64,000 nt of DNA from Halococcus hamelinensis 100A6. GTDB taxonomy: Archaea > Halobacteriota > Halobacteria > Halobacteriales > Halococcaceae. The notes beneath the pieces were generated by a model that saw nothing but the letters and a program-made list of their open reading frames with translations, had not been told where the DNA came from and searched no databases. The position numbers were made by a program, and so were the translations under genes. Positions within the stretch are counted from its first letter, which is position 1. Each line of letters opens with the position of its first letter. Positions 46,088-64,000 of the stretch are shown here, piece after piece. The stretch covers positions 1-64,000 of the forward strand of contig NZ_AOMB01000023.1 in the NCBI RefSeq assembly GCF_000336675.1, read 5' to 3'.

Positions 46088-46238
46088 GTCGTTCCGTTAG
46101 GCGCGGCATCGTCTTACGGGTTTTGAACCCGAGCGAGACCGACCGACCATCGATGGTCGATGGAGAAGGGTTACGTTCGTGATGGTTGCCGCCGCGAGTA
46201 CGATGATTTTTATTCTCCACCGTCGAGGCTCAGGTATC

Positions 46239-47123
46239 GTGAGTGATCAGCCCGGTTCTCGGGGGAGCAGTAGTGGGAGATGCCAACCGCCGCGCTCCGG
46301 TGACGGGACCGGATCCGAGAACGGGACCGACCGGAGCGGTGTGCCCGCGGACGCGACGGTGGCGGGACTCGACGCCCACGAGCGCTCGGTCTCGATCATC
46401 ATCCCGACGTACAACGAACGCGAGAACATCGAACAGGTCGTCGAACGGTGTCGGGACGCGCTCGCCGAGTACCGCTTCGAGATCGTCGTGATCGACGACG
46501 ACTCGCCCGACGAGACCTGGCGGTTCGTCGAGGACGAGTACGAGGGGCTGGAGGTGGTGCGGGTGGTCCGCCGAACGGAGGAGTCGGGGCTCGCGACCGC
46601 GGTCTCGCGAGGGTTCGACGAGGCGACCTACGAGCTGTGTGCGGTGATCGACGCCGACCTCCAGCACCCCCCCGAGAAGCTCCCAGAGCTCATCGCGGCG
46701 TTCGACTCCGGGGCCGACATCGTGATCGGAAGCCGTCACGTTCCCGGCGGCGGCGTCGAGAACTGGTCGCGGTTCCGACGGCTCGTCAGCCGCGGTGCGA
46801 TGACGATCGCGAAGGCCGCGCTGCCACCGACGCGCGGCATCTCGGACCCGATGAGCGGTTTCTTCGCGGTTCGTCGCGAGATCCTCGCCGGGGTCTCGCT
46901 CGCGCCGACCGGCTACAAAATATTGCTCGAGATCCTCCTGAAGTGCGAGTACGACCGCGTCGTCGAGGTGCCGTACGTCTTCACCGAGCGCGAGCGCGGC
47001 GAGTCGAAGCTCTCGGCTGGCGAGTACCTCGGTTTCCTCGAACACGTCTACGACCTCCGGCGGGACGGCTACGCGGTCCGGGACCCCCACGCCGCCGTCT
47101 CGGTCGACCGAAACCAGCAGTGA
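46239..47123 (+). CDS. Family 2 glycosyltransferase, dolichyl-phosphate mannose synthase-like
   Basis: A 294-residue GT-A enzyme starting at GTG 46239. Polar extension (about 1-48), then SVSIIIPTYNERENIEQVVE and FEIVVIDDDSPDETW, and the D-x-D region AVIDADLQHPPEKLPELI. Next GSRHVPGGGVENWSRFRR and GISDPMSGFFAVRREIL, the DPM1 pattern. No C-terminal membrane span is visible, so it probably works at the membrane face. A TATA-like ttttattct lies about 30 nt upstream, consistent with a leaderless mRNA. Likely makes polyprenyl-phosphate sugars used by membrane glycosyltransferases in the glycan region downstream. Confidence 0.88.
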   Translation: MSDQPGSRGSSSGRCQPPRSGDGTGSENGTDRSGVPADATVAGLDAHERSVSIIIPTYNERENIEQVVERCRDALAEYRFEIVVIDDDSPDETWRFVEDEYEGLEVVRVVRRTEESGLATAVSRGFDEATYELCAVIDADLQHPPEKLPELIAAFDSGADIVIGSRHVPGGGVENWSRFRRLVSRGAMTIAKAALPPTRGISDPMSGFFAVRREILAGVSLAPTGYKILLEILLKCEYDRVVEVPYVFTERERGESKLSAGEYLGFLEHVYDLRRDGYAVRDPHAAVSVDRNQQ

Positions 47124-47191
47124 CCGCGGGCGGGATTCCCGAAACGAACCAATAACCCTAAGCCGGGCTACCCGTATTTCCCGGTACCGAA

Positions 47192-48538
47192 ATGCCCTCC
47201 CTCTCGCGCCAACGTCTCGGGGTGGCCCTGGTCCTCGTCGCCGTCGTCGCCGTCGCGGGTTCGCTCGCGGTGAGCGCCGCCACCGGGCCGTCGGCCATCT
47301 CCAACGCCAATGCCAACGACAGCGCCGACCGCGGCAAAACCGTCGTCGGGATGCAGGCCGCCGGCCGTGTCTCGATGTTCGACTCGAACGGCAGTCGGCT
47401 CTGGACCTTCGGCACCCCCGACACCGACTACTTCGACGTCACGGTGCTCGACAACGGCTCGGTGCTCACGGGCTACATCACCGAGGGCGAACAGGAGTGT
47501 GGCCAGTACGAAGCCCCGTGTGCGCGGACGGGGTTCCAGATAATCGACCCCGGCCCCGACGCCAACCCCGACCCGCAGGTCACGAGCGAGTGGTCGTTCC
47601 CGGTTCCCGAGATGCTCAACAACGAGGTCCACGACGTCGAGCCGCTCCCCTCCGGCGAGTTCATCATGACCGACATGGCGAACGAGCGGGTCTTCACCGT
47701 CGCGCCGAACGGCACGACGACGTGGCAGTGGAACGCGAGCGAGCGCTACGACGCACCCGACGACCCCGTCAGCACCGACTGGCTCCACATCAACGACGTC
47801 GACCGGATCGGTGAGGGTCGGTACATGGTGTCGGTCCGGAACGCCAACCAGCTCCTGATAATCCAGCGCGGCGAGGGCGTCGTCGACGTCATCAACGAGG
47901 ACACCGGCGACGCGGACGACGCGATCTGCAAGGAGAACAACGGCCTCCGTGACTTCAGCAACGACTCGGGCGGCGACGTGCTCTGTGGCGACCCCGAGGT
48001 CATGAACCACCAGCACAACCCGCAGTACCTCGGACCGGACGCGATCATGGTCGCCGACTCCGACAACAACCGGATCGTCGAACTCCACAACGAGAGCGGG
48101 GGCTGGGACGTCGCCTGGGGCGTCGACTCCTCGAACGACCGGGGCTACAGCTGGCCGCGCGACGCCGACCGCCTTCCCAACGGGAACACCCTGATCACCG
48201 ACTCGCGCAACGACCGCGTCGTGGAGGTCACACCCAACGGCACGACAATCTGGACCGCCGATACCGGGAGATGGCCCTACGAGGCCGAGCGGTTGCCCGC
48301 TCAGGAGACCCTCAACGACAGTAGCCTCCCGCGGATGAACGCCAGCGCCGACTCCGGCACGATCGGCGGTGCGGAGACCAGCATCCCGTTCGTGGGCCAG
48401 GCCTACGCGGGGCTCTCGTACGTGGTCTCGCTCCCGCTCTGGTTCGCGCCGTGGCACATCGCGGTCGTCGTCGTGGGCCTGCTGCTCACCATCGTCGGTG
48501 GCGGCCTGGTCTGGAGCGGACGGCGGCGAGCCCCCTGA
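47192..48538 (+). CDS. Arylsulfotransferase-like membrane-anchored beta-propeller
   Basis: A 448-residue protein with an N-terminal span (GVALVLVAVVAVAGSLAVSA), a long extracytoplasmic propeller and a C-terminal span (IAVVVVGLLLTIVGGGLVWS). The ASST-family pattern is VHDVEPLPSGEFIMTDMANE, DDPVSTDWLHINDVDRIGEG, VMNHQHNPQYLGPDAIMVAD and GYSWPRDADRLPNGNTLITD. Conserved His residues (VHDVE, DWLHIN, NHQHN) are candidates for the catalytic His of PAPS-independent arylsulfotransferases. Many N-x-S/T sites indicate surface location. It could transfer sulfate on an external polymer, but it may also be a non-enzymatic propeller. Confidence 0.75.
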   Translation: MPSLSRQRLGVALVLVAVVAVAGSLAVSAATGPSAISNANANDSADRGKTVVGMQAAGRVSMFDSNGSRLWTFGTPDTDYFDVTVLDNGSVLTGYITEGEQECGQYEAPCARTGFQIIDPGPDANPDPQVTSEWSFPVPEMLNNEVHDVEPLPSGEFIMTDMANERVFTVAPNGTTTWQWNASERYDAPDDPVSTDWLHINDVDRIGEGRYMVSVRNANQLLIIQRGEGVVDVINEDTGDADDAICKENNGLRDFSNDSGGDVLCGDPEVMNHQHNPQYLGPDAIMVADSDNNRIVELHNESGGWDVAWGVDSSNDRGYSWPRDADRLPNGNTLITDSRNDRVVEVTPNGTTIWTADTGRWPYEAERLPAQETLNDSSLPRMNASADSGTIGGAETSIPFVGQAYAGLSYVVSLPLWFAPWHIAVVVVGLLLTIVGGGLVWSGRRRAP

Positions 48539-48629
48539 AACGTCGGCAGAAACGCGGACACGGGTGGTATCTTCTACGCCGGGCACATGCAGGCCGGATC
48601 ATCATGGCTGCGTCACCCCACCGTCCGGT

Positions 48630-48815
48630 ATGGCAAGTGGAACGTATCCGACGAACGAGGACGGATCGCCGGTGTGTGCCAGACCGACCCCCAACGGGGT
48701 CTGTCTCCACGAGGTTTCGGTCCCCGGTGCGCCGTGTGCGGACCACCGCGGTCACAGTCCGGTCGAAGCAGCGGAGGTCGTTTGGCGGCCGCGTGACCCC
48801 GAGTGGACCCTGTAG
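48630..48815 (+). CDS. Small Cys/His-rich putative zinc-finger protein
   Basis: A 61-residue protein, MASGTYPTNEDGSPVCARPT then PNGVCLHEVSVPGAPCADHR, ending WRPRDPEWTL. The spacing C-x7-C-x-H-x7-C-x2-H resembles the small haloarchaeal zinc-finger micro-proteins. Strong third-position GC use fits coding. No ribosome-binding site is obvious. It lies convergent to the alkaline-phosphatase-superfamily gene with 12 bp between stops. Function unknown. Confidence 0.55.
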   Translation: MASGTYPTNEDGSPVCARPTPNGVCLHEVSVPGAPCADHRGHSPVEAAEVVWRPRDPEWTL

Positions 48816-48827
48816 CGCGCTCGACGC

Positions 48828-50174
48828 CTACTCCATGTAGCCGAGGTTCCGAAGCCGCTCTTGAACGTCGTCGTCGCGTTCGACGCCGCCGGTGTCGGCG
48901 ACGTCGATGCTGTCGAGTCGCTCGTCGAGCGCCGCGTGGAGGTCGGCCCACTCCTCACCGTCGAGGTCCGTGACCGGTGCTTCCTCGCCGGGGTCGGCGT
49001 CGAGGTCGAAGCCCTCGATACCGTCGGCGGTGTAGATCAGCTTCCGCGCCGGGGTCCTGACCCCGACCTGGAGCTCGTCGGGGTCGAGCCGACCCGGCTG
49101 GGTGGGTGACGAGGCGACCTCCGAGATCGCGTCCGCCGTCTCGATCCCCTCGCCCTCGACCGCCGGTCGAAGCGACCGACCCTGGTAGGAGTCGGGGGCC
49201 TCGACGCCGGCGTAATCGAGGATCGTGGGTGCGATGTCGACGTGGCGGACCTGCTCCTCGACGACGTCGGCGTTCGCGCCGTCGGGCGGGCGAACCAGGA
49301 ACGGGACGTGAACGAGCTCGTCGTAGAGGGCGGGTTCGTGGCCGACCTGGCCGTGTTCGAACAGCGCCTCGCCGTGGTCGGCGGTCACAACCACGAGGGT
49401 ATCGTCGTCGACGGCCCGGAGGAGCTTACCGACCTTCTCGTCGGCGTGGCGGACCGACGCGGCGTAGAGCCCGCGGATGACCTCGCGCTCGCGCTCGGAG
49501 AACGACTCGGGGTCGTGTTGGGCGCGGGTGACGAGCTGGGAGGGCGTGGTGTCGGTCTCGGGGACGCCGACGGCCTCGCGGTGGTGTTTCGGCGGGGTGT
49601 AGGGCGCGTGGGGTTCGAGGAGGTGCGTCCAGACGAAGGTGTCCCCGCGAGCGTCGTCGAGCGCCTCGCGTGCGACCTCGATCTCGGCGGCGTCGCCCGT
49701 CACCATTCGCAGCGGACCCTGAACGTAGCGGTAGGCCGACTGGACCGCGCGATAGACCGGGCTGTCGAGCGAGAAGTTCTCGAGGAGGAACTGCCGGCCC
49801 CGTTCGAGTCCTGGCAATCCGAACTCGCCGACGTCGCGGTAGTCGTCATAGCCCCGACCGTAGCCGTACTTCTCGCCGAGCCACGGGTTTGCGTGCGCAC
49901 CGACGCAGTGCCAGCCGTTCGGGGAGAGGGCCTCGCTGACCAGGGTCCGGTCGGCACTCAGTTCCTCGTAGCCACCGTAATCGAGCGGGAGCGCCGAGGT
50001 GAACACCGCCGGGAAGGCGTAGGGCGTGGCCGGGCCGTGGCTCACGGCCTGTGAGAACACGGTGCCCTCCGCCGCGAGGCGGTCGAGGTTCGGGGTGTGT
50101 TCGCCGACCGATCCCGGCATGAACGAGGCGTGGTCGGCACGCCACGCGTCGATGGTGAGCAGGAGCGTCTTCAT
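48828..50174 (-). CDS. Alkaline-phosphatase-superfamily hydrolase/transferase (sulfatase-like)
   Basis: A 448-residue protein without a signal peptide: MKTLLLTIDAWRADHASFMP, metal Asp in LLTIDAWRADH, then SHGPATPYAFPAVFTSALPL where the nucleophile should be. The position normally Cys/Ser in sulfatases is a Thr followed by Pro (T-P-Y-A). VVVTADHGEALFEHGQVGHE supplies the Asp-His metal ligands plus the distal His. C-terminal RKLIYTADGIEGFDLDADPG is the usual end. It probably acts on a phospho- or sulfo-ester; the Thr nucleophile points to phosphodiesterase or phosphotransferase chemistry. Divergent from the glycan operon. Confidence 0.88.
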   Translation of the reverse strand: MKTLLLTIDAWRADHASFMPGSVGEHTPNLDRLAAEGTVFSQAVSHGPATPYAFPAVFTSALPLDYGGYEELSADRTLVSEALSPNGWHCVGAHANPWLGEKYGYGRGYDDYRDVGEFGLPGLERGRQFLLENFSLDSPVYRAVQSAYRYVQGPLRMVTGDAAEIEVAREALDDARGDTFVWTHLLEPHAPYTPPKHHREAVGVPETDTTPSQLVTRAQHDPESFSEREREVIRGLYAASVRHADEKVGKLLRAVDDDTLVVVTADHGEALFEHGQVGHEPALYDELVHVPFLVRPPDGANADVVEEQVRHVDIAPTILDYAGVEAPDSYQGRSLRPAVEGEGIETADAISEVASSPTQPGRLDPDELQVGVRTPARKLIYTADGIEGFDLDADPGEEAPVTDLDGEEWADLHAALDERLDSIDVADTGGVERDDDVQERLRNLGYME

Positions 50175-50483
50175 TGTCCGATCCGCTCGCTCGTGGGTGA
50201 ACTGTTTTACTATTCGGTGGCGTGTCCCCACGGTCAAAACGTGGTCACGTATACCACGATGGACGTGTGATCACACACCGGACGGACGATGGGCATCCAA
50301 CGGCAGGATCGTCCGAAACCCCCGTTTTCGTTGGTCTGACCGCCCGAGGGTCCGATAGGCAATACTTAATTGGCTCCGGTCTGTTCTTTCGCGCAATGAT
50401 TTCGTCCTCCGCCGAGCGCCCTCCTCGTTCCACCGGACCGCAACGACGCACGGACGCCCTCGAAACTCACCCGTCGTTCTGAG
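50175..50483. other. Divergent promoter region of the glycan operon
   Basis: No gene is visible in these 309 bases between the divergent phosphatase-like and GT4 genes. An AT-rich run atacttaattgg (50362-50373) is the best promoter candidate for the downstream operon, lying about 110-120 nt before the ATG, which would imply a leader. On the other side, acagttcacccacg next to the minus-strand start at 50174 lacks an obvious TATA. Confidence 0.4.
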
Positions 50484-51527
50484 ATGTCCGGTACACGCGT
50501 CGTTCTCTGTCCCCACCTCTCGGTCGAACACTACCGTGGCGGCGAGAAGTGGGTCTGCTCGCTCGCCAACCGTCTCGCCAGCGACGGCGTCGACGTCTCG
50601 GTCCGTGCCCTCCCCTACGCGCCCGGTGGCGAGCGCCGCGTCGCGGTGCGGGACGTGCTCGACCCCGACATCCCCTATCGCGAGGCCTGGCACCACGACC
50701 TCTCCGAGTTCGACACCGCGTACATCTTCTACAACCCCTTCTCCGAACTCTTCTTCTCCGGCGGTGGCACCCGGATCGCGGGCGTCCACTCCTGGGTGTT
50801 CGTCTCGCGGAAGCTCTACGAGGCCCACTACGGTGCGGTGCCCACGGCGGTCAAACTCCTCTATCGAACCGTCGGCAAACGCGACCTCTCGCGGTTCGAC
50901 GTCGTCCACTCCGTGACCCCGGCCTACGACTCCCCGCACCCGAACACGGTCCACATCCCGAACTTCGTCGACACCGACCGGTTCTCGCCCGACAACGCAC
51001 CGCTCGACGACGAGTTCACCGTCCTCACCACCGCCGCCCACATCCGCGAGAAGGGCTGGGACACGATACAGGACGTGGCCGAGCGGCTTCCATCGAACGT
51101 TCGAGTGGTGACGACCGGCGAGGGCGCGGGGGAGGTCGAGGGACTCGGCTTCCTCGACGAGGACGAACTCGCCGCGGCCTACGCCCGTGCGCACGTCGTG
51201 CTCCACCCCGCCCGGGTCGACACCGACAGCATGGTGATAAACGAGGCGTGTGCCTCCGGAACCCCCGTGGTGACGACCCCGCTCTCGACGCACGTCCGGG
51301 AGAACGAGGCGGTGTTGCAGGCCGAAACCCCGCGCGGGATGGCCCACGCGATCGCGCTCCTGCACAGCGAGTGGGCTCACGACGACGGCTACGCCGAGCG
51401 GTGTGACCGCGCCCGTTCGGAGGGCGAGTCCCACGCCATCGAAGCGGTCTATCCCAAACTCAAGGACCTGCTGCTCTCGCCGCCGACCCGCGAGCGCGGC
51501 GGTGACCGAACGGAGGTCCACACGTGA
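50484..51527 (+). CDS. GT4-family glycosyltransferase
   Basis: A 347-residue GT-B enzyme. N-terminal domain: VEHYRGGEKWVCSLANRLAS, the Gly-rich acceptor loop. C-terminal domain: VHIPNFVDTDRFSPDNAPLD, LTTAAHIREKGWDTIQDVAE, GLGFLDEDELAAAYARAHVV, then LHPARVDTDSMVINEACASG and TPVVTTPLSTHVRENEAVLQ. The Glu in VINEACASG is the E-x7-E nucleotide-sugar motif. No spans, so it is cytoplasmic or peripheral. First gene of the GT4-GtrA-DUF2079-DUF2079 operon, with a 4-bp overlap to gtrA. Confidence 0.9.
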   Translation: MSGTRVVLCPHLSVEHYRGGEKWVCSLANRLASDGVDVSVRALPYAPGGERRVAVRDVLDPDIPYREAWHHDLSEFDTAYIFYNPFSELFFSGGGTRIAGVHSWVFVSRKLYEAHYGAVPTAVKLLYRTVGKRDLSRFDVVHSVTPAYDSPHPNTVHIPNFVDTDRFSPDNAPLDDEFTVLTTAAHIREKGWDTIQDVAERLPSNVRVVTTGEGAGEVEGLGFLDEDELAAAYARAHVVLHPARVDTDSMVINEACASGTPVVTTPLSTHVRENEAVLQAETPRGMAHAIALLHSEWAHDDGYAERCDRARSEGESHAIEAVYPKLKDLLLSPPTRERGGDRTEVHT

Positions 51528-52012
51528 GCGTGCTCGACGAGGTCCGCGAGCGCTCGCTGTTCGACCCCCAGAACAAGCGACTCGTGTTGTACATCGCGGT
51601 CGGTCTGGTCGGGGCTGCGATCAATCAGGCCGTCACCGTCGGCAGCTTCAAACTCGGGGTTCCCTATCTGATCGCCGGGGTACTCGGACGCGTTCTCAGT
51701 ACGCTCTCGAACTACGTGATGAACGACAGCGTGACGTGGCGCGGCCGCGGTGCGGCGGGCTTCGGTCAGTGGTGCTGGCGCGGCGTGAAGTACGTCGCCA
51801 CCCGTCTCGTGGGTATCGGTATCGGGACCGTTGCACTCGTCGTCTTCTATGACTTCCTGGGGATCCCGTTCTTCTGGGCGAACCTCCTGTCGATGGGTGT
51901 CGGCCTGCTCTGGGGCTTCGGCGCGAGCGAGAAGTGGGTCTGGAGTACGGAGGACTCCTCCTGGTCGCTCGACTCCGTGAAGCAGTACTTCGGCGAGGAC
52001 AAGCGTGAGTAG
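51524..52012 (+). CDS. GtrA-like flippase-type membrane protein
   Basis: A 162-residue protein with four hydrophobic segments, the GtrA-family layout: LVLYIAVGLVGAAINQAVTV, GVPYLIAGVLGRVLSTLSNY, VGIGIGTVALVVFYDFLGIP and FFWANLLSMGVGLLWGFGAS. The WRGRGAAGFGQWCWRGVKYV loop is typical (Trp, Phe and basic). GtrA proteins flip polyprenyl-linked sugars across membranes. Starts GTG/ATG-type with overlap to both neighbours (4 bp upstream, 8 bp downstream), indicating strict coupling. Confidence 0.88.
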   Translation: MSVLDEVRERSLFDPQNKRLVLYIAVGLVGAAINQAVTVGSFKLGVPYLIAGVLGRVLSTLSNYVMNDSVTWRGRGAAGFGQWCWRGVKYVATRLVGIGIGTVALVVFYDFLGIPFFWANLLSMGVGLLWGFGASEKWVWSTEDSSWSLDSVKQYFGEDKRE

Positions 52013-54029
52013 GCTCTCGGAATCGATCGGCCGCGAGAAAAGCGACACGTCGTTCACCGACCGGGTGACCGGCGCGCTGCCGGCCCGCAACGACCCGACG
52101 TGGCTGGTCGTCCTGCTCGCGCTGGCGCTGTTCGTCGGTTTCTCGGTATACACCTCGCTTCTGCACGTCCGCTTCGCGACCACGGGGGCCGACCTCGGGG
52201 CGTACACCCACATGTTCTCCTCGACGCTCAACGGGGAGGGCTGGCTCGACAACGGCAAGTACCGCGTCGAACTCCTCTCGTCGTCGTACTGGGGCGCGCA
52301 CTTCTCGCTGACGTTGCTCGCCTTCATCCCGCTGTTCGCGCTGGTGCCCTCGGTCTACACCCTCCTGGTGGTGAAGTGCTTCGTGCTCGCGGCGAGCGTC
52401 GTGGTGCTCTGGGTGCTCGCCCGCGACCGGCTCGGTGCCCGTCTCGGCGGGGTCGTGACGCTCTCGTACGCGTTCAACCCGTTCCTCTGGTCGGCGTGGT
52501 CGTTCGATTTCCAAGAACAGATCCTGATCCCGCCCCTCCTGTTCGCGGCCTACTACTGCTATCGGAAGGACCGAACCCTCGCCTTCCTCGTCCTCTTCTC
52601 GCTGGTGTTGTTCACCAACGAGTTCGTGATCTTCCCCGCGATCGGCTTCACCGCTGGGCTCGCGGTCGCGGCGGTCCTCGCGGGTCGGGCGCGCGAGAAG
52701 GCCCCGGCCATCGTCGGCGCGGTGGTCACCCTCGGGCTGGCGCGGTTCGTCTCCAGCACCGTGATCGAACACTTCAGTCGGGCGAGCGGGCTCCCGGTCT
52801 ACGTGATCGCCGAACCCCTCCAGGCGTACGTCCAGAGCGGGACGCGGGTGTCGATCCTCGACCTCCTCGGCGTCGTGCTCGCGAACCCCACCGTTCTGAT
52901 CGATTCGGCGACGTTCGCGGTCGAGGACAAACTCCTCTTCTTCGCGGCGTTCATGCTCCCCGTCCTCTTCCTCGCGCTGTTCGACGAACTCTCGTTGTTC
53001 GCGCTCGGCCCGTACCTCGGCTTCGCTTGGATCTTCACCGGCGCGTCGAAGGCGGTCTACTTCGAGTTCGGTGCCCACTACCCGCTTTACCTCCTGCCGT
53101 TCGTCTACATCGGGGTCATCCACCTCCTCGCGCGGCTCTCGACCCGATTCGACGGGATCTCGATACCGTCACGGGCGGCGTTTTCGGGGGTCGCCACCGG
53201 CGTGCTGGTGCTCTGTCTCGTCGCAGGCATCGCCTCCGGCGGCGGCCACCTCGCAGCCCCGCCGCCGGCGGACGAGGACCACGACGCCGTCCTCCAGACG
53301 GCCATCGACTCGATCCCGGCGGACGCGACCCTGCTCGCCCAGAACGACATCTATCCCCACGTCGCCACCCGTCCCAACGCGAGCTTCATCGTGAGCCAGA
53401 CGACGTTCGAGACCTACGAACAGCGATACGGACCGGTGTCGCCGGAGTACGTCCTGATCGATACGGACCTCAACCCGGACGCGTCCTGGGGACGAACCGT
53501 CCAGCGGAGCTTCGGTGAGCGCCTCGGCGACGAGTACGGGCTGCTTCGCTATCAGGACGGCGTCCAGGTCTACCAGCGGGGCTACGAGGGTCGGACCTAC
53601 GGGGTGACACAGCGCGACCCGAGCCCGCGGACCTACGACGCGAGCGAGTTCGCGACCGAGAACGGGACCCAGGCGAACGGCACCCTCGTGAGCGAGGCGG
53701 GCTCCTCGGGCGAGTACGTCTGGTTCGGCCCCTACGACACCCTCGCGCCGGGCAACTACACCGCGACCTTCCGGGTCAACGTCTCCGGCGACGGCGACGA
53801 CCCCGTGTTGCTGACGCAGGTCGCCGGCGGCGAGGACCACGTGGAGCTCGCGAACGCCACGGTCACGCCCGGCGACGGCTGGCAGAACGTCTCGGTGCCG
53901 TTCCGCCTGACCGAGAGCACCTCGGAGCTCGAGTACCGCGGGGTCAGACGGGGCGAGGGTCGGATCGTGCTGGACCGGGTGCGGATATCCTATCCGGAAA
54001 CCGCAAACACCACGGAGGGCGGGGCGTGA
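52005..54029 (+). CDS. DUF2079 multispanning protein (putative GT-C glycosyltransferase) with C-terminal beta-sandwich
   Basis: A 674-residue protein with GTG start, overlapping gtrA by 8 bp. The first half has about ten spans with DUF2079 marks: FATTGADLGAYTHMFSSTLN (Asp motif), SSYWGAHFSLTLLAFIPLFA, SYAFNPFLWSAWSFDFQEQI and FEFGAHYPLYLLPFVYIG. The extracytoplasmic half includes DATLLAQNDIYPHVATRPNA and a jelly-roll-like end, SGEYVWFGPYDTLAPGNYTA and LDRVRISYPETANT. The fold and topology suggest a membrane-embedded transferase using lipid-linked sugars. Closely paralogous to the next gene. Confidence 0.82.
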   Translation: MSRLSESIGREKSDTSFTDRVTGALPARNDPTWLVVLLALALFVGFSVYTSLLHVRFATTGADLGAYTHMFSSTLNGEGWLDNGKYRVELLSSSYWGAHFSLTLLAFIPLFALVPSVYTLLVVKCFVLAASVVVLWVLARDRLGARLGGVVTLSYAFNPFLWSAWSFDFQEQILIPPLLFAAYYCYRKDRTLAFLVLFSLVLFTNEFVIFPAIGFTAGLAVAAVLAGRAREKAPAIVGAVVTLGLARFVSSTVIEHFSRASGLPVYVIAEPLQAYVQSGTRVSILDLLGVVLANPTVLIDSATFAVEDKLLFFAAFMLPVLFLALFDELSLFALGPYLGFAWIFTGASKAVYFEFGAHYPLYLLPFVYIGVIHLLARLSTRFDGISIPSRAAFSGVATGVLVLCLVAGIASGGGHLAAPPPADEDHDAVLQTAIDSIPADATLLAQNDIYPHVATRPNASFIVSQTTFETYEQRYGPVSPEYVLIDTDLNPDASWGRTVQRSFGERLGDEYGLLRYQDGVQVYQRGYEGRTYGVTQRDPSPRTYDASEFATENGTQANGTLVSEAGSSGEYVWFGPYDTLAPGNYTATFRVNVSGDGDDPVLLTQVAGGEDHVELANATVTPGDGWQNVSVPFRLTESTSELEYRGVRRGEGRIVLDRVRISYPETANTTEGGA

Positions 54030-54042
54030 TGGAGGAGTACGC

Positions 54043-56055: not shown

Positions 56056-56120
56056 TTCGACCCGAACGGGGGACTGGGCGATGAAGAAACACATTTTCCG
56101 CTTCGCGCCCTGTTGTGGGT

Positions 56121-57587
56121 ATGTTCGATAACGCGCGGGCGTACCTCCGCGCCGCGCTCTCGCGGTCCCGGCGGTTCGAACGCCGGGAGGTCCACGACTT
56201 CCGCCGGTGGATCGAGAGTTCCAGGAACCTGATCCACCTCTCCGTCCTGCTGTTCGTGCCGCTCCTAGTCGGCCTCGTGACGCTGATCTCGAACGTCGCC
56301 GACCTCTCCTTCCTCCTCTTTCCGCCGCTGGCCGCCGGCGCGTATCTCCTGTTCGCCCACCCCGAGGAGCGCTACGCCGCCCCTTGGCGGTTCGTCTCGG
56401 GGCTGACCGCCGGTGCGGCGTGTGGCTGGATCGCGGTCGCGACCCTCTCACAGTTCTACTACGCCCCCTCGGCGGCCCAGGAGATCCACGCCGGCGGCGC
56501 GGCGCTCGCGATGTTCCTGACCGGGGCGGCGACGTGGGCGTTCGACATCGAGGAGCCGGCGGCGTTCTCGACCGCGCTCCTCGCCGTCGTCGAGCGGGCC
56601 TCGGGGTTCGCCTACGTCGTCTCCATCGCGGTGTCGAGCATGATCGTCGCGGGCGTGTTCCTCGTCTGGCACCGCCAGGTCTACTCCCATCGGGCCCGCT
56701 ACCTCTACCAGTCGACGAAGGGCGACGACCACGTCCTCGTGCCGATGCGCGGCGACCACGCCGACGCCACCGCGATGTTCGGCGGTCGCCTCGCCGCCGC
56801 CCACGACGCCGGCAAGGTGGTGCTGTTCGACCTCGTCGACCCCGACGAGGCCGGGGCGAGTGCCACGGAACCGGACTCGGACGGACAGACCGTCGCCACC
56901 GACGGTGGGGTGGACGCCGACGCGCCGGAGCCGGGGTCGACGAAACCCCACGCCGGCCGGCTCGAACGGTGTGCGGACGCCGTCGAGGCCACCGTCGGGG
57001 TTCCGTGTGAGGTCGTCGTCGCCCGGCGCGGCTCCGAACCACCCGCCAAGACCACGCTCAGGACCGCGCGCGAGTCCAACTGCGATCTGGTGGTCACACC
57101 CTACGAGGAGGGCGAAGGCGGGCTGTCGTCGTTCGTGACCTCGCTGTTTCGGACCGACATGGACGTGGTGGTACACCGGTCGATCGACGGACGGACCGAG
57201 TGGGGGCGGGTGCTGGTGTCGGTCCGGCAGGCCAGCGACGTCGCCCGGAGCATGCTCGATTTCGCGTGCCGGCTCGCGGGTTCCTCGGGACGGATCGGCG
57301 TCTGTCACTGTATCTCGACGGCCGCCGAGCGCCGCGACGCCGAGAGCATGCTCGCCGACCTCGTCGAGACCTTCTCGACCCGCATCGAGACGCGGGTGGC
57401 ACACGGCCCCGCCGAGGACTTCCTCGCGGCCGCGTCGTCCCACACCGACCTCGTGGTGCTCGGGGCCAGCACCGACCGGAGTGCCGTCTCGCGGTTGCTC
57501 GCGCCGGCGACGTTCGAACGGCTCCACGACATCGAGTGCGACGTGGCGATCGTCGACCGTCGGTACCGACCGCTCGACCACAACTGA
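56121..57587 (+). CDS. HPP-family membrane protein fused to two UspA-like domains
   Basis: A 488-residue protein. Residues about 25-190 hold four or more spans with HPP-type text (FLLFPPLAAGAYLLFAHPEE, RYAAPWRFVSGLTAGAACGW, GAALAMFLTGAATWAFDIEE). The soluble half has two Usp-like modules: GDDHVLVPMRGDHADATAMF and AGKVVLFDLVDPDEAG, then TEWGRVLVSVRQASDVARSM and HTDLVVLGASTDRSAVSRLL. The second module has the GAS...SAVS ATP-binding pattern. It could sense nucleotides or stress and gate a membrane activity. ATG at 56121 preferred over GTG at 56115. Follows the DUF2079 pair by 65 bp. Confidence 0.85.
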   Translation: MFDNARAYLRAALSRSRRFERREVHDFRRWIESSRNLIHLSVLLFVPLLVGLVTLISNVADLSFLLFPPLAAGAYLLFAHPEERYAAPWRFVSGLTAGAACGWIAVATLSQFYYAPSAAQEIHAGGAALAMFLTGAATWAFDIEEPAAFSTALLAVVERASGFAYVVSIAVSSMIVAGVFLVWHRQVYSHRARYLYQSTKGDDHVLVPMRGDHADATAMFGGRLAAAHDAGKVVLFDLVDPDEAGASATEPDSDGQTVATDGGVDADAPEPGSTKPHAGRLERCADAVEATVGVPCEVVVARRGSEPPAKTTLRTARESNCDLVVTPYEEGEGGLSSFVTSLFRTDMDVVVHRSIDGRTEWGRVLVSVRQASDVARSMLDFACRLAGSSGRIGVCHCISTAAERRDAESMLADLVETFSTRIETRVAHGPAEDFLAAASSHTDLVVLGASTDRSAVSRLLAPATFERLHDIECDVAIVDRRYRPLDHN

Positions 57588-57856
57588 GTCCTCCCCGGTC
57601 CGAAGGCGAGGGTTCTGACCGGTTCTCAGAAAAGGGGGACCAAGGGACGTGGCCCGCTGCGTGGCATCTCGGAGAGTCCTTCGAACCCTCCATCCCGTTG
57701 TTCAGCACCCTGGTATAAACACCTTCGTGTCATGGCAGAACGCTATACGGTTTCGCCGAACGTCGCATCTCGGCCCGGGTTCGCCGTCGCTCGGGCTCCT
57801 CTGCCGATTAGGACTGTACAATACCGACGGGAGAACCGGACGGTTCCGAACCCGAT

Positions 57857-58108
57857 TCAGACCTGTATCATGTTCTCGCAGTGCGTACAGGGGACCCGGT
57901 CCGTGGCGTCGGAGTCGTCGTATTCGCTTTCGTTACCACATTCGCTGCAGGTCACGGTTGCCATGTCCGGCGGTTTCGTGTCGTGGTCACATAGCCCTTC
58001 TACCGGCTTGTGCAAACAGACCAGTGTCGGGTTTTCCGACGAGAAACGGGAGGAAGTCGGTGGGGGACCGTCGGGGTCGCCTGTAAAGCCGGACGCGATT
58101 TTGCTCAT
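57857..58108 (-). CDS. Small two-module Cys-rich (zinc-ribbon) protein
   Basis: An 83-residue frame. N-terminal part contains NPTLVCLHKPVEGLCDHDTK (C-x-H-x7-C-x-H), similar to the Cys/His finger in the small protein gene at 48.6 kb. The C-terminal part, MATVTCSECGNESEYDD and then VPCTHCENMIQV, is a four-cysteine zinc ribbon that could also be a separate 35-residue protein starting at 57964. The ATG at 58108 gives MSKIASGFTGDPDG. Upstream it merges in frame with the degenerate segment described separately, so the true start is uncertain. Function unknown. Confidence 0.5.
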   Translation of the reverse strand: MSKIASGFTGDPDGPPPTSSRFSSENPTLVCLHKPVEGLCDHDTKPPDMATVTCSECGNESEYDDSDATDRVPCTHCENMIQV

Positions 58109-58592
58109 AGAGGGCGTGTCGCGTAGATGGCGGTCGGCCAGCGTTCGGCGATGTTCTACGTCGCGTTCCACGTCGGCATCGCCGATCGCTGGGGATGTGG
58201 CGATCGCGACGTCCACGAACAAAGTGCCGCAGGATCCCGATGCAGTCGACCCCTTGAACTGCAAGACGACCGCCACGCTCGAAGGCGAAGACCTCAAGCC
58301 GCAGTCGATCGGCGATAGCCAGCACATGCCTTGTGTGCTCGCCGAGTTCGTCGACGCTGTGACCATAGACGTACCACCGTCGACGCCGGCACTGTCCAGA
58401 GCGAGTCGTTCGTCGGCGGGGAGGCGGAGTCCGACGCTCTCTGCGCAGGTGGGCTTCGGGAGCGTTACCGCAGATACAGTGAACGCTAGACAGATCAATG
58501 GCACCCACTATCTCGATCCCGATCGTGACAACTTCGGAACGGTGCTCAACGAAATGCTCGGCGTCGATTCCGACGCATCCGAGTGCGAGGCC
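58109..58592 (-). pseudogene. Frameshifted remnant of an unidentified gene (possibly transposase)
   Basis: Four minus-strand segments in two alternating frames line up end to end: 58592-58461 (GCVGIDAEHFVEHRSEVVTI), 58474-58373 (ESVGLRLPADERLALDSAGV), 58379-58242 (RWYVYGHSVDELGEHTRHVL, DRLRLEVFAFERGGRLAV) and 58228-58109 (GDADVERDVEHRRTLADRHL). Each segment is protein-like while the neighbours in the same frame are not, which is the pattern of a coding region broken by at least three frameshifts. The LALDSAGVD stretch resembles the first Asp region of DDE transposases, but that is a guess. No intact copy is visible. Confidence 0.45.
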
Positions 58593-58695
58593 TGGCGTGT
58601 TTCGCGAGCTCGCGACAGTCTGATGGGATTCTCGTTCAATAAGAGCGTATGTTTTGTATCCAAATCGATTTGGTTCTCCCTCTACAGCGTAGAAT

Positions 58696-59613
58696 ATGGA
58701 TGTATACAGCCGGATCACTCCCGAACGTCTCCGACGTGGCATCGAGACGCCAGCCCTGATTGGCCGTGAACTCAACCGCTTTTATCATACACGCTTCGAA
58801 ACACGCCCTCACAACACAGCCGGCATCGACGTCTTCGCCGAAGACTGGGATACGCTTGCTATTGCCGATGCCTGTCCATTGAGTACGTTTGCTACTCATC
58901 ATACTCTTCCAGGTCAGCTCGAAACGCGGGTATCGCGTGGTTCGAGTACGCCTGAATGGCTCGAAGCTAATTTTACTGGTGACCAGCGCGATACGGTGTA
59001 CATAACGGCGAACCCTCAATACGAACGCAACCGCGACGACCTCGACATCCGACTCTGCGAAGTTGAGAACGTCTGGGATTCCGAGGGCTGGGATGCGGAA
59101 TATAGAACTGTACGTCCTGAGACCGTCACTGACGCGGTGCTCGACGCCGCGGACCGTTACCCCAATAAACGACTACTCGTTCATTATATCCAGCCACACT
59201 ATCCATTTATCGGGCCTACGGGACAGCGCTACTTCGACGGTGATTCACTCTCATTTTGGTCCCGTGTGATGGACGGTAGTGTGAACGCTCCCGACCATGT
59301 CCTCTCTCAGGCTCACGACGAGAACTTCAAGCTCATGCTCCCTGCGTTGGAGCGTCTCCTTGACGAACGGGATGGAAAGACGGTCGTAACGGCCGACCAC
59401 GGTCAGATGCTTGGCCAACGTTCGTTTCCAATTCCGATACGAGAGTGGGGGCACCCACGTGAAACGTACGTCGACGAACTCGTACATGTCCCTTGGCTCG
59501 TCCACGAAACCGGTACTCGGCCCGACATCACAAAAGGGGATGCAACCGAAGCAGTAGGCCATTCGGACGATGATCTCTCCGAGCGGCTTGCAGCACTTGG
59601 CTACGCGGACTGA
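58696..59613 (+). CDS. Alkaline-phosphatase-superfamily protein (sulfatase-like), short haloarchaeal type
   Basis: A 305-residue protein. Metal Asp in DWDTLAIADACPLSTF, nucleophile region RVSRGSSTPEWLEANFTG (Thr before Pro, in place of the sulfatase Cys/Ser), VYITANPQYERN, LVHYIQPHYPFIGPTGQRYF, then TVVTADHGQMLGQRSFPIPI and EWGHPRETYVDELVHVPWLV with the Asp-His pair and distal His. Ends SERLAALGYAD. Haloarchaeal homologues occur in surface-polysaccharide loci. It probably hydrolyses or transfers a phosphate or sulfate ester on glycans. Lies at the boundary of the AT-richer region; no SD seen. Confidence 0.83.
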   Translation: MDVYSRITPERLRRGIETPALIGRELNRFYHTRFETRPHNTAGIDVFAEDWDTLAIADACPLSTFATHHTLPGQLETRVSRGSSTPEWLEANFTGDQRDTVYITANPQYERNRDDLDIRLCEVENVWDSEGWDAEYRTVRPETVTDAVLDAADRYPNKRLLVHYIQPHYPFIGPTGQRYFDGDSLSFWSRVMDGSVNAPDHVLSQAHDENFKLMLPALERLLDERDGKTVVTADHGQMLGQRSFPIPIREWGHPRETYVDELVHVPWLVHETGTRPDITKGDATEAVGHSDDDLSERLAALGYAD

Positions 59614-59747
59614 CGTTCCACGCATACCCAATAGTCACTGTGGCCCGCTGCATTCGGCCGTTTGTATCGGTTGCAACTTGAAAGAGATGCAGTCTACACC
59701 TCTATGAAATCGTACGTTCTTTGTACGCTCGTGATTTCCTCGATACT

Positions 59748-61004
59748 GTGACCACCTCCAAGGAAAACTTATTGCTATTACTAGTACTTTTGTTAGCGAG
59801 TCTTCTTGTTGGAATAGAGATTCCAGAGGGAATCGCCTATGTTGCTGTCGCAGCGGTTTATGGCATAGTCCTCATAATTTGTTTTGTTCGGGGTCGTCTC
59901 GGAATTGCGTACAGCAGGACATTCTTGTACCTTATCGGCGTCCTGTGGGCAATATTCGTACTGAATGTTGCGTTGAATCCTACCCCAAGATCCTTACTCC
60001 GAGGTATTTCATTCATCGTATTTTCTGCGCTCACACTCTTTGTTGTTCCTGGCACGTTTTCACGCGAAGAATTTATAGATGCACTTTCGATTGTCGCAGT
60101 TGCGGTAGGGCTAGTAGCCATCCCAATAGGTGCTTCGACATTACTGTCCACTGGTAGTGGCTTCGGTGTCTATGCTACCTCAGGCACATTACTGGGAACC
60201 GGAATCGAGCTGCCTGTTTTAATGTCTATATTCGAGAATCCAAACTATCTCGCTACACTCTCTGCATTGGGGCTTGTTGCGTCATTTGGTCTCGCAGATG
60301 GTTCACGAAGACGCGAGATCGCTATTTTGTTTGGAGGAGTCTGTCTACTTTCACTCGTTCTTTCGCAGGGTCGAGCCGGGTTCTTAGCGCTGGTAGGGGG
60401 AGGAATTGTCTATATCGTATACCGTATTGGAGGGGCTCGTTTTGCGACACCTGTAGTTGTGCTCGGTATTTTGTGCGCGGCCCTGTTTTTCGTATTTGCT
60501 GTTGTGAGCATTGGAGGACTTAGGGTTCCCGAATCAGTGCTCAACAATCGGCAAGGCCTGTGGAGTGCAGCGATTGCTGCAATTAGCGAACGCCCATTTC
60601 TTGGCTGGGGATTAATCGACACTCCTCAAATCCTTGCGGACCACGGTGCTCCGACACCAGCAGGACACGTTTTCGGAACACATAACAGCTACCTTCGGAT
60701 GTTTCTGATATCAGGGATTAGCGGAGGGGTGCTCTACCTCGGTGCTATTGGTTACACCCTATACCGTTCCCTCAGAGTAGAAGAGAACTCTCAGGGGAGC
60801 GCGGGGTTACCCCTTGCTCTCCTAGTGGTGGTTCTCATCATACACATGTTCAATGGCTCCACGATATTTGGGCTGAGTTTCGTGTCGCTGTTCAGTGCAT
60901 TGGTCATTGGCTACGGCCAGCAGCCATCAAACCGAATTAACATCACTCGGAAATATAGCGAGATCTCGAAGAAAATTTGCCGGCAGCTGGAAGTAAAAAT
61001 CTGA
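59748..61004 (+). CDS. O-antigen ligase/polymerase-like membrane protein (Wzy/WaaL family)
   Basis: A 418-residue protein with about ten to twelve spans. The ligase-type signature is the periplasmic loop AAISERPFLGWGLIDTPQIL followed by AGHVFGTHNSYLRMFLISGI, where the His and the GTHNSYL motif are typical of WaaL/Wzy catalytic loops. Start uncertain: GTG at 59748 gives MTTSKENLLLLLVLL; TTG at 59721 is an alternative. Codon use is more AT-rich (TTA, ATA, AAT) than that of genes before 57 kb, a sign of horizontal exchange. It should polymerise or transfer lipid-linked glycan on the outer face. Confidence 0.85.
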   Translation: MTTSKENLLLLLVLLLASLLVGIEIPEGIAYVAVAAVYGIVLIICFVRGRLGIAYSRTFLYLIGVLWAIFVLNVALNPTPRSLLRGISFIVFSALTLFVVPGTFSREEFIDALSIVAVAVGLVAIPIGASTLLSTGSGFGVYATSGTLLGTGIELPVLMSIFENPNYLATLSALGLVASFGLADGSRRREIAILFGGVCLLSLVLSQGRAGFLALVGGGIVYIVYRIGGARFATPVVVLGILCAALFFVFAVVSIGGLRVPESVLNNRQGLWSAAIAAISERPFLGWGLIDTPQILADHGAPTPAGHVFGTHNSYLRMFLISGISGGVLYLGAIGYTLYRSLRVEENSQGSAGLPLALLVVVLIIHMFNGSTIFGLSFVSLFSALVIGYGQQPSNRINITRKYSEISKKICRQLEVKI

Positions 61005-61142
61005 GTGGATCAAAGAGATTCTATGGTAGCCCACTGTAGTACACAGCCGCGGTAAGTACCCTAACCCAATGTCCAACGAGCGACTGTATTCCTGTGTTTG
61101 CAAGAATAGAGAAAGGGCGAGCGGCAGGTGGCTGATGATGGA

Positions 61143-62357
61143 TCAGGAGCGGAATTGCTGTACGACTCCAATCGCGCCAAATAGATACACGATCCAAAGG
61201 AACATCTGACGGTGGCGGACCGACGTGCCGACGTTTGCACTGACGACCCCGTACAGCCCCACTGCTGCGAGAAACCCGACGGACAGCGTAATCGTGGTCG
61301 CCGGCGCACGCCGGAACGCGTATCGAATCCCCCACAGCACCGCGATCGTGAATGCGATGTTCCCGATCGCTTGGAGCGCGATAACGACATCTGGACCTGT
61401 TCCTATCATCCACGGCATCGGCGAGTACAGAAAGTAAACTACCCCGACTGGGCCGAACTGGATGGCCTCTGCGATGGTGTTAAACTCGACGCCAGTGAGA
61501 TATGCCGTCCGACCAGTCGCACGCAGCTCGTGGATCCGCCCAAGTCGGTCGATAGCGCTCTGGAGCAGGTCAGCCCCCACGATACCGATTACGGCGACCG
61601 CGCCGACGGCGATAGCGCCGCTGGTCCGCCAGTCGGCGTCAAGGTGTTGGAGAGTCATAGTGACCGCACTGATGGCAAGCGTGAGGAGGTACAGGGGGAC
61701 ATTCTCCGGCCGGAGCGGGGCGATAACCATAAGAACGAGAATTGCACCGACGGTGGACACGGGTCGCGACAGCTGGCGCGGTGGACAAATCAGGAGATGG
61801 GCAGCGGTCGTGATACCGGCGATCATCGCTACCTCACGAAGTAAGGTCGACTGGATGAGTATATAACTTGGGTATACCGCAACTGGGAGTGCGGCAAGTA
61901 CCCCTGCTGCCGAGGAGTGATAGTAGCGGCCGATCGCATAGATATTGTAGACTGCGAGCGCACCAAGCAGCGCAACCCCAATATGTGCATAGATAATACT
62001 CGGACCTGGCAGCAGCCAGAACGGTGAAATCCAGAGTGCCCAATACTCCGAGACACTGAAGGTTGCCCCGCCACCGCCGAGGAAGAATGAGATAAGCGTG
62101 GTCTCCCCGCCGCGGTAAAGCGCTCCAATAAGTATCTCGCCGTTCTGGAACCCTGTACCTATTCGAGCTGCCCGTCGGGTGAATCCGATAACGTCGGCGG
62201 TCGAATAGGGATTGATTTGAAGCAGTGAGAGCGGGATCGCGAACAACCGGAGCAAAAGTGCAACTCCGACGACGGCGTCCGGGCCAGACGAAAATCGCCT
62301 GATCACCCACGAGAGGTGCGATCGCCACCGTGCCTGCGGATTATCGGTGGGAAACAC
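61143..62357 (-). CDS. Multispanning membrane protein, GT-C/PMT-like
   Basis: A 404-residue hydrophobic protein with about ten to twelve spans. After a basic N-terminus it has ADVIGFTRRAARIGTGFQNG, EYWALWISPFWLLPGPSIIY, LPVAVYPSYILIQSTLLREV and the terminal VRHRQMFLWIVYLFGAIGVV. The Arg-Glu pair in STLLREVAMI after PSYI is typical of GT39/GT-C-like proteins in glycan loci. No strict D-x-D loop is visible, so the enzymatic call is tentative. Opposite strand to its neighbours. Probably transfers a sugar from a polyprenyl-phosphate donor, or is another membrane step of the same pathway. Confidence 0.65.
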   Translation of the reverse strand: MFPTDNPQARWRSHLSWVIRRFSSGPDAVVGVALLLRLFAIPLSLLQINPYSTADVIGFTRRAARIGTGFQNGEILIGALYRGGETTLISFFLGGGGATFSVSEYWALWISPFWLLPGPSIIYAHIGVALLGALAVYNIYAIGRYYHSSAAGVLAALPVAVYPSYILIQSTLLREVAMIAGITTAAHLLICPPRQLSRPVSTVGAILVLMVIAPLRPENVPLYLLTLAISAVTMTLQHLDADWRTSGAIAVGAVAVIGIVGADLLQSAIDRLGRIHELRATGRTAYLTGVEFNTIAEAIQFGPVGVVYFLYSPMPWMIGTGPDVVIALQAIGNIAFTIAVLWGIRYAFRRAPATTITLSVGFLAAVGLYGVVSANVGTSVRHRQMFLWIVYLFGAIGVVQQFRS

Positions 62358-62743
62358 ATCTTCCGGTTCTAACCCCTGTAAGAAAGCGTTGGTGAAGTAG
62401 ATTTGATCCTCGGAGCCGTTAGAAAGGAAATCTCACGCGTCCACACTACTCTGCAGGGAATCTTTATCAAATGATGCTTGAGGTGCTGAAAAGTATCGCG
62501 ATGGCGACGAACGGGGGAGTACCGATGCGGTGGCGGGCGCTGCCGTTGCACTTTTGCGCAACAATAGGGGAGCTGTTTTGGGGCGGTCCATACGCTTGTT
62601 CTAGTCTGGAATACACAGCCAAAAGCGATTGGTGGAGATGTGGTTTAGTGATCAAACTATAGGGAGGATTCCATCTAAGCAGTACCCGCTGATCGAAACT
62701 AGTCAAGAAGTAGGCTTATTTACAACCCCTCGATATGGGTGTT
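62358..62743. other. AT-richer intergenic gap before the last gene
   Basis: No convincing gene lies in these 386 bases. Short frames on both strands are not protein-like. A TATA candidate, gcttatttaca (62714-62724), lies about 26 nt before the ATG of the downstream gene and suggests a leaderless start. Confidence 0.5.
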
Positions 62744-64000
62744 ATGGCTAAACCAAACGTACTTTGGCTTTCAATTGAGAGCGCGCGTGCAGACTATACA
62801 TCGATGGGTTCTGGTCGAAATACAACCCCATTTTTCGATAAGCTTTCGATGAATTCGGATGGCCAGTGGTTTAGCAATTGTTTTTCCCATGCACGGTGGA
62901 CGCCGGCTGCCACTACCTCGATCCTCACAGGAACACGTCTCTCAACGCATAAAGTTGGATTCGGCGAAAGCGATGGTAGTGTGACAAAATTGCCCACAGA
63001 ACTTTCAACTATCCCAGAACTTCTGAAAAAGAAAGGCTATACAACGGCACTTTTCAGTGGAAACCCGTATGTCGGGAATAACACCGGGCTCGATCGGGGA
63101 TTTGATGTTGTTCATGAACGACCTGAAAAAGACGATTTCCTCTCGAAAAGTGGCGCATTGGCTGGCCTCAGACATCTCCGCGATACTCGGACTACTGGGG
63201 CAGGGCTTAGTTTGAACCCATCCCGCCACAAAGATTGTCTCCGTGAGCGTATCCAGTACGAGTCCTTTCGACACTGGTTCGATACCAAGGATGACGATCA
63301 ACCCTACTTCGCATATCTGCATATAAACAACCCCCATCACCCCTATCGGCCTCCACTCAATATACTGAAAGAGCGGCTTACTGGAGAGGATCTCTCACCC
63401 ACCGAGGCCATTAGGATCTCGAACGGTATAACGAACGACCTGTGGCAAGCGGTCGCCGATGGTTGTGAGTTTTCACCGAAAGAGCAGCGAGCTTTGGAGG
63501 CTACCTATGAGGCAGAGTTGACGTATGCAGACTACATTGCTAAGCAGGTATTCAAATATGCTGTAAGTAGAGATGAAGACACAGTTGTAATTATTACTGG
63601 AGACCACGGTGAAATGTTTGGCGAAAATGGTATGCTAGGTCATAACCTTGTTCTTCATGATGGGATACTCAATGTTCCTCTGATCACATACGGTTTAGAT
63701 ACTGGATCTGCCCAGTCGGATGATCTTATCCAGCACGCAGATGTGAGTAAGGCAATACTAGACGCTTGTGGTATTCAGAATGAACAGTTCAAGCAGGCAT
63801 ATAATTTCACTCATGAAAACCGAGATTACGTTGTTGCGGAGCGTGGTCCTCGGCCCTCCAGAGCTGACACCCTTGCCGAACGGAATCCAGAATTTGATTC
63901 AGATTCGTTTCATTGGAACCAACTCTCGATGATTCGGTCACGGGGTTGGAAATACCAGCGAAGTTCTGAAGGGGAGGACCTCTTCAAACTGCCCGACGAA
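62744..64000 (+). CDS. Alkaline-phosphatase-superfamily protein (sulfatase-like), 3' end beyond window
   Basis: The frame is open for 419 codons to the window end, so the protein is incomplete at its C-terminus. Metal Asp region: VLWLSIESARADYTSMGSGR (Asp/Glu positions shifted, with Glu in SIES). Nucleophile region: SHARWTPAATTSILTGTRLS, with Thr-Pro where sulfatases have Cys/Ser. Later TVVIITGDHGEMFGENGMLG and HNLVLHDGILNVPLITYG give Asp-His and distal His. Position three of three such enzymes in 15 kb. ATG 62744 is favoured by TATA spacing; an in-frame ATG lies 9 nt upstream. AT-rich codon use. Confidence 0.85.
   Translation, partial: MAKPNVLWLSIESARADYTSMGSGRNTTPFFDKLSMNSDGQWFSNCFSHARWTPAATTSILTGTRLSTHKVGFGESDGSVTKLPTELSTIPELLKKKGYTTALFSGNPYVGNNTGLDRGFDVVHERPEKDDFLSKSGALAGLRHLRDTRTTGAGLSLNPSRHKDCLRERIQYESFRHWFDTKDDDQPYFAYLHINNPHHPYRPPLNILKERLTGEDLSPTEAIRISNGITNDLWQAVADGCEFSPKEQRALEATYEAELTYADYIAKQVFKYAVSRDEDTVVIITGDHGEMFGENGMLGHNLVLHDGILNVPLITYGLDTGSAQSDDLIQHADVSKAILDACGIQNEQFKQAYNFTHENRDYVVAERGPRPSRADTLAERNPEFDSDSFHWNQLSMIRSRGWKYQRSSEGEDLFKLPDE

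Follow-up and report, generated by a model that had tools for sequence, protein, structure and literature searches.

Organization of the Region

The window analysed here comprises the first 64,000 nucleotides (C23:1-64000) of contig C23 (NZ_AOMB01000023.1, 109.5 kb) of Halococcus hamelinensis 100A6, whose assembly consists of 3.42 Mb in 46 contigs; the analysis was extended past the window end. In the stretch 46239-64000, an original prediction had seen a single undescribed polymer pathway. The glycan-related genes that it named are present, with corrections, according to Pfam, NCBIfam, and PDB searches, and their families could be assigned firmly in the case of GT2, GT4, GtrA, two DUF2079, Wzy_C/O-antigen ligase, and two alkaline-phosphatase-superfamily enzymes (sulf1 and sulf3). 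The stretch splits, however, into two units, i.e., a core rich in guanine and cytosine (GC) at 46.2-56.1 kb and a low-GC island starting at 58067. The original interpretation is partly supported, and the region is read below as a conserved archaeal three-component-like glycosylation module located beside an unrelated mobile surface-glycan island.

The first gene of the core (46239-47123, plus strand; PF00535, E 2.7e-37) encodes a soluble glycosyltransferase (GT) of family GT2, which at the family level belongs to the DPM1/GtrB-type polyprenyl(dolichyl)-phosphate sugar synthases. Its best solved relative in the PDB search is the dolichol-phosphate mannose synthase of Pyrococcus furiosus (5mlz, E 6.6e-77); ArnC and GtrB structures are matched as well (GtrB with E 1e-16), and the motif D158-A-D160-x-Q162-H-P-P-E is invariant in the 13 aligned rows. 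The start of the gene is uncertain: the longest frame begins at 46179, a GTG at 46239 is plausible, and conservation sets in only some 20-70 residues into that frame.

The gene sulf1 (48828-50237, minus strand; PF00884, E 2.3e-34) is linked to the core and encodes an enzyme of the alkaline phosphatase superfamily, in which Thr71 occupies the nucleophile position. It is followed by four genes on the plus strand, encoding a GT4 glycosyltransferase (50484-51527; PF13692/PF00534), a GtrA-type membrane protein (51524-52012; PF04138, E 2e-19, over the cut-off), and two DUF2079 proteins, DUF2079a (52005-54029; PF09852, E 5.6e-49) and its second copy DUF2079b (54043-56055; PF09852, E 1.1e-46), which form separate Halococcus clades. 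The four genes are tightly packed, since GT4 and GtrA overlap by 4 bp, GtrA and DUF2079a overlap by 8 bp, and 13 bp separate DUF2079a from DUF2079b. The GtrA family is the membrane part of dolichol-phosphate mannose synthase and is also the proposed flippase of Gtr systems; the protein of the core is thus, at the family level, a candidate flippase of a dolichyl-phosphate-linked sugar or an anchor of GT2.

Conservation, Co-Occurrence, and Fusion of the Core Genes

The distribution of the core was followed in an order-level sample of 243 genomes from 77 genera, including 10 Halococcus genomes. The genus is supported by sequence identity, as contig C127 of G002 matches NZ_AOMC01000127 (Halococcus morrhuae DSM 1307) letter for letter and the initial 14 kb of G009:C132 are the same as in NZ_AOMF01000133 (Halococcus thailandensis). 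In all ten Halococcus genomes, the core is present and linked, with the order GT2-(ASST-like)-sulf1 (minus strand)-GT4-GtrA-DUF2079a-DUF2079b, where the ASST-like (arylsulfotransferase-like) gene is described below. In some species, other genes (MATE, MFS) have been inserted between parts of the core, and the set is still together.

In the whole sample, GT4 (E <= 1e-40) was found in 16/243 genomes, belonging to 6/77 genera; DUF2079b-like proteins occur in the same 16 genomes, and even the whole Pfam family DUF2079 (PF09852) is confined exactly to them. As for sulf1 (E <= 1e-80), 14 of the 16 genomes carrying the module harbor it, compared with 0/227 of the others, and one of the two module genomes devoid of it (G008) is only 72% complete. 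The chance of such a full overlap of genera would be 4e-9 if the six genera were independent, a figure that is too small because genera share ancestry, and 1.6e-5 when the count is restricted to the three genera that lie outside the family.

Outside Halococcus the gene order varies: it is GT2-GT4-GtrA-DUF2079-sulf1, all on the same strand, in G196; GT4-GtrA-DUF2079-sulf1 with GT2 on the opposite strand in G205; GT2-GT4-GtrA-DUF2079 in G154; and GT2 opposite to GT4-GtrA-DUF2079-sulf1 in G015. Since the genes stay together in spite of this variation, their link is argued to be functional. Moreover, in the same four lineages GtrA and DUF2079 form a single reading frame of 805-928 codons. Both Pfam domains were confirmed in the fusion proteins of G154, G196, and G205, and in G015 one frame of 810 codons covers both tblastn matches. 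The scanned flanking genes of these lineages are housekeeping ones (PhoU, phosphate-binding protein, DinB polymerase, thioesterase, and glyoxalase), so the module would represent a unit of its own that needs no fixed glycan neighbourhood. Both the linkage and the GtrA-DUF2079 fusion show that the components are encoded together, as in three-component systems. The original prediction had named the scattering of homologous genes in other haloarchaea as the observation that would speak against it; this comparison was carried out across the relatives, and the core withstands it, with GT2, sulf1, GT4, GtrA, and DUF2079 remaining linked.

Five Halococcus genomes harbor a second GT4-DUF2079 pair, and these additional pairs sit on contigs of lower GC content (59-63%).

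The tRNA-Thr Island

At about 58 kb the GC content drops from about 69-70% to about 50%. In the sister genome G006, whose GT4 is 98% identical, the alignment ends at 58066 and resumes at 66964, which corresponds to an empty site. The right end of the segment is marked by a tRNA-Thr(CGT) gene (C23:66966-67040, minus strand), also present in G006 and located next to Trm5, whose 3' end coincides with a repeat copy at 66960-66977; the left direct repeat, GGAGGAAGTCGGTGGGGG (58049-58066), matches this end of the tRNA gene (C23:66960-66977) at 17 of 18 positions. Next to the tRNA gene there is an integrase remnant of about 42 residues, 74% identical over 31 residues to the start of a decayed integrase gene that adjoins this tRNA gene in G007 and whose second part encodes a tyrosine integrase (PF00589, E 4.5e-16). 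Database look-ups with a 32-residue integrase remnant yielded nothing useful, the link having come from the same site of G007. Only this remnant, and no intact integrase, was found in the island, which also showed no repeats that would indicate an insertion sequence. On the basis of the empty site, the direct repeat at the tRNA-Thr gene, and the integrase remnant, the segment 58067-66963, which occupies the window from 58067 to 64000 and continues to C23:66963, is a tRNA-targeted genomic island, strain-specific and partly decayed; no other Halococcus genome harbors it at this site. The site of G009 holds a further integrase remnant, and the tRNA-Thr(CGT) gene beside Trm5 is a repeatedly used integration site.

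The island includes sulf2 (58696-59613, plus strand), encoding a short protein weakly similar to the alkaline phosphatase superfamily (PF00884, E 0.0063, below the cut-off); a gene for a Wzy_C/O-antigen ligase-like membrane protein (59721-61004, plus strand; PF04932, E 4.8e-14), whose relatives elsewhere in Halococcus are at most 48% identical and never located at this locus; a gene for a multi-transmembrane protein (61143-62357, minus strand); and sulf3 (62735-64159, plus strand, running past the window end; PF00884, E 5.1e-33), coding for an alkaline-phosphatase-superfamily enzyme. The third of these products had been predicted to be GT-C-like, an assignment that is weak, as the matches to PMT_2 (E 0.018) and LA3751 (E 4e-4) both lie below the cut-off. 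Beyond the window, a decayed GT2 gene (C23:64838-65047, minus strand, with flanking fragments at 64.3-65.4 kb) has its frame broken in several places, with PF00535 still matched by one fragment (E 5.3e-9), and a CsaB-like polysaccharide pyruvyl transferase is encoded at C23:65561-66595. Pyruvylation is a further way to put charge on a surface glycan. A second strain-specific low-GC insertion (C23:68128-71587) lies between Trm5 and a tetrapyrrole methylase gene and contains a gene for a Wzx-type flippase (PF01943; C23:69914-71587) together with small unassigned open reading frames (ORFs). Of the parts of a Wzx/Wzy-dependent polymer pathway, no initiating sugar-phosphate transferase was found among the genes searched, the Wzy-like protein being encoded in the island and the Wzx protein in the second insertion.

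It might still be supposed that one polymer pathway is encoded by all 18 kb, the Wzy-like and phosphatase-fold genes included, as its genes are all related to glycans and lie side by side in this strain, and as the Wzx-type flippase and pyruvyl transferase genes are nearby. This is very improbable. The second half is the tRNA-Thr island, absent from the sister G006 and from all other Halococcus genomes at this site, its GC content is 44-60% compared with 66-73%, and one of its GT2 genes has decayed; the empty site and the GC step led to the rejection of the 18 kb as a single pathway. What stands of the original prediction on this point is a joint, conserved glycan function of the core, whereas the Wzy-like gene, the GT-C-like gene, sulf2, and sulf3 do not belong to it, being located in a separate mobile element.

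Between the two units lies a gene for an HPP-Usp membrane protein (56115-57587, plus strand; PF04982 and PF00582), not assigned to the module. It adjoins the core here and is about 3.2-3.4 kb distant from it in G001, G004, and G005. This gene had been omitted from the original prediction, as had the GC step and the boundaries of the island. The ORF 57732-58769 matches no family and appears spurious, its first third lying within sequence common to an intergenic stretch of G006. An Rfam search of 46-64 kb gave no match.

DUF2079 and the Proposed Function of the Core

DUF2079 proteins contain many hydrophobic/transmembrane (TM) segments and an invariant G-x-D-x-G-x-Y motif soon after TM1, the Asp of which (D53) is itself invariant. 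The predicted structure of DUF2079b ends with a beta-sandwich resembling carbohydrate-binding modules (CBMs; residues ~532-660, 55636-56022, plus strand). In the AlphaFold2 model of residues 413-660, the mean predicted local distance difference test (pLDDT) score is 63.6 and reaches about 80 within the sandwich, which in this model appears similar to many CBMs (VIA-align Z 11-13 over ~120 residues; Foldseek E 1.6e-5). In known GT-C enzymes there are 7-13 TM helices and an outside loop after TM1, and some of them (EmbA/B/C, AftD, GT136) carry CBMs (PMC11127046). DUF2079 may therefore possess a GT-C fold, and both copies are candidate GT-C-type extracytoplasmic glycosyltransferases. A search of a library of 5.4 million papers found no mention of DUF2079. 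Among 14 control genomes, the single carrier of the family is Sulfolobus acidocaldarius.

It is fairly probable, in our opinion, that the core represents an archaeal, self-contained variant of the GtrA/GtrB/GT-C three-component system, devoted to extracytoplasmic glycosylation. The class of GT2, the family of GtrA, and the TM segments, motif, and CBM-like domain of DUF2079 can be read as the charging of dolichyl phosphate (DolP), the crossing of the membrane, and the transfer outside. Adding to them the linkage, the co-occurrence, and the fusion, we infer a chemistry and an acceptor as follows. In the cytosol, GT2 would load one sugar onto DolP; GtrA would either anchor GT2 or flip the charged lipid; and DUF2079, with its many helices and its putatively outside carbohydrate-binding-like domain, would transfer the sugar onto a surface glycan. 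GT4 and sulf1 might perform linked cytosolic steps, at a guess the making or trimming of the acceptor. The charging of a carrier lipid and its flipping, both part of the original prediction, are plausible from the gene families.

Among the nearest parallels are the bacterial GtrA/GtrB/Gtr* systems for O-antigen glycosylation (Shigella/Salmonella) and the GT136 pentofuranose systems (PMC11127046). They resemble the core in a DPM/GtrB-type synthase, a GtrA-family protein, a membrane protein of large size that bears a carbohydrate-binding-like domain, and linked genes, with GtrA and the putative transferase even joined in four lineages of the module. They differ from it in that the putative transferase is here the uncharacterised DUF2079, an additional GT4 and a Thr-type phosphatase-fold enzyme are present, and the host is an archaeon. 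The mycobacterial Emb arabinosyltransferases and AftD likewise combine a membrane transferase using a polyprenyl-phosphate-linked sugar with an extracellular CBM and a cell-wall glycan; this likeness is one of architecture only, and DUF2079 had no sequence match to them in the PDB profile search. In Haloarcula hispanica, AepG is described as a DPM/GtrB-like GT2 making a DolP-linked sugar for an acidic exopolysaccharide (PMC9943897); unlike the GT2 of the core, it is encoded within the aglB cluster, and no flippase or transferase is known to act with it.

Several observations weigh against the three-component interpretation. The co-occurrence counts partly reflect shared ancestry, the module being carried by four families only; in the g2 genomes G010 and G013, DUF2079 and GT4-GtrA are located on different contigs; and the second GT4-DUF2079 pairs of five Halococcus genomes have no adjoining GtrA. 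In addition, when the PDB was searched with a profile built on 19 DUF2079 sequences, no GT-C structure was matched, and the AlphaFold2 model of full-length DUF2079b (4 sequences) has a pLDDT of 48 and is unusable outside the C-terminus.

A different target could also be imagined for the core: rather than a polysaccharide, it might glycosylate a glycolipid of the membrane or add a last sugar to an N-glycan in the manner of AglD/AglR/AglS. Lipids are common substrates of GT4 enzymes. In Haloferax volcanii, the last mannose of the N-glycan is added by the same logic, with AglD charging DolP, AglR aiding the crossing of the membrane, and AglS carrying out the transfer outside (PMC3871713). The core departs from that system in using GtrA and not a Wzx-like protein, and a control search found no DUF2079 in Hfx. 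volcanii, so the identification of DUF2079 with AglS was rejected, PF09852 being absent from that organism. The single aglB gene, furthermore, is not near the core, being on another contig (C32:68393-71104), and for this reason an Agl N-glycosylation locus linked to aglB was discarded as well. The CBM-like domain of DUF2079b, too, would suggest a longer glycan acceptor. A glycolipid or N-glycan target is considered unlikely, although it retains some weight.

Phosphatase-Fold and ASST-Like Genes

The original prediction had counted three alkaline-phosphatase-superfamily enzymes and had assigned to the region the addition or removal of charged groups. The former claim is firm for sulf1 and sulf3 and weak for sulf2; as regards the latter, a sulfate chemistry is not supported by the data. 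All three "sulfatases" have Thr, and not Cys or Ser, at the nucleophile position, the surrounding region being T-P-Y-A-F in sulf1 (18 orthologue rows, with a conserved GP[AS]TPYAF motif) and, in an ungapped reading, T-P-E-W-L in sulf2 and T-P-A-A-T in sulf3. The C/S-x-P-x-R (formylglycine) motif does not occur anywhere in the three sequences, which led to the rejection of a type I (formylglycine) sulfatase identity for all of them, and no TM segment was predicted in any of the three. The Thr at the nucleophile position, together with the missing motif and the lack of a predicted TM segment, points to a phospho-chemistry of sulf1 on the cytosolic side, away from wall desulfation.

The ASST-like beta-propeller protein, with N- and C-terminal hydrophobic segments, is encoded by a neighbour and not by a member of the module (47192-48538, plus strand). 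Its assignment is weak: PF14269 is matched above the cut-off (E 1.3e-10), yet the PDB profile search returned no ASST structure for this product, only NHL/TRIM propellers. Its closest orthologue lies at a different locus in four Halococcus genomes (G002, G003, G007, and G009) and is also present in g2 genomes, whether or not they carry the module; ASST-like proteins are multi-copy across the Halococcus family, with 5-10 matches in most Halococcus genomes. A sulfotransferase reading of the region was rejected, since elsewhere this gene is unlinked to the core. Among sulfotransferase families, Sulfotransfer_3 (PF13469), the one searched, exceeded the cut-off in 0 Halococcus genomes.

Possible Relation to the Halococcus Wall

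The Halococcus envelope is a highly sulfated heteropolysaccharide, which replaces a proteinaceous S-layer (PMC13321033); its composition is known from chemistry dating to 1982, as cited in the same paper. Given such a wall, the presence of multi-copy ASST-like propellers without a Sulfotransfer_3 protein over the cut-off in any Halococcus genome is odd. A literature search found no paper naming genes for the Halococcus wall.

In order to account for the conservation of the core, one might propose that it belongs specifically to the machinery of the sulfated wall and does not merely decorate a surface glycan. The host genus has this wall, the core is kept, with its genes linked, in each of the 10 Halococcus genomes, and the S-layer glycoprotein (TIGR04216) has no match in 18/18 genomes of the family. 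This absence says little, however, because TIGR04216 exceeds the cut-off in just 37/243 genomes; the test being too weak, the S-layer family was no longer used to stand in for the wall. Three further families include carriers of the module, and not every member of the Halococcus family has it. The core is devoid of a sulfotransferase, and a wall of at least eight sugars is beyond the reach of two or three sugar transferases, so that other loci would be needed. A dedicated wall function is thus doubtful, while a role of the core in the sulfated wall is possible. The combined proposal that DUF2079 is a new GT-C family and that the module provides the first component to be identified of the apparatus building or decorating the sulfated Halococcus wall is put forward only as a tentative one, with rather little probability of being right in both its parts.

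The tRNA-Thr island illustrates how surface-glycan genes are swapped beside a fixed core. As far as DUF2079 is concerned, the fusion with GtrA, the company of a putative dolichyl-phosphate sugar synthase, and the carbohydrate-binding-like terminal domain provide this family with a testable function, and the five-gene unit kept by all the Halococcus genomes examined represents a concrete starting point for the genetics of the wall.

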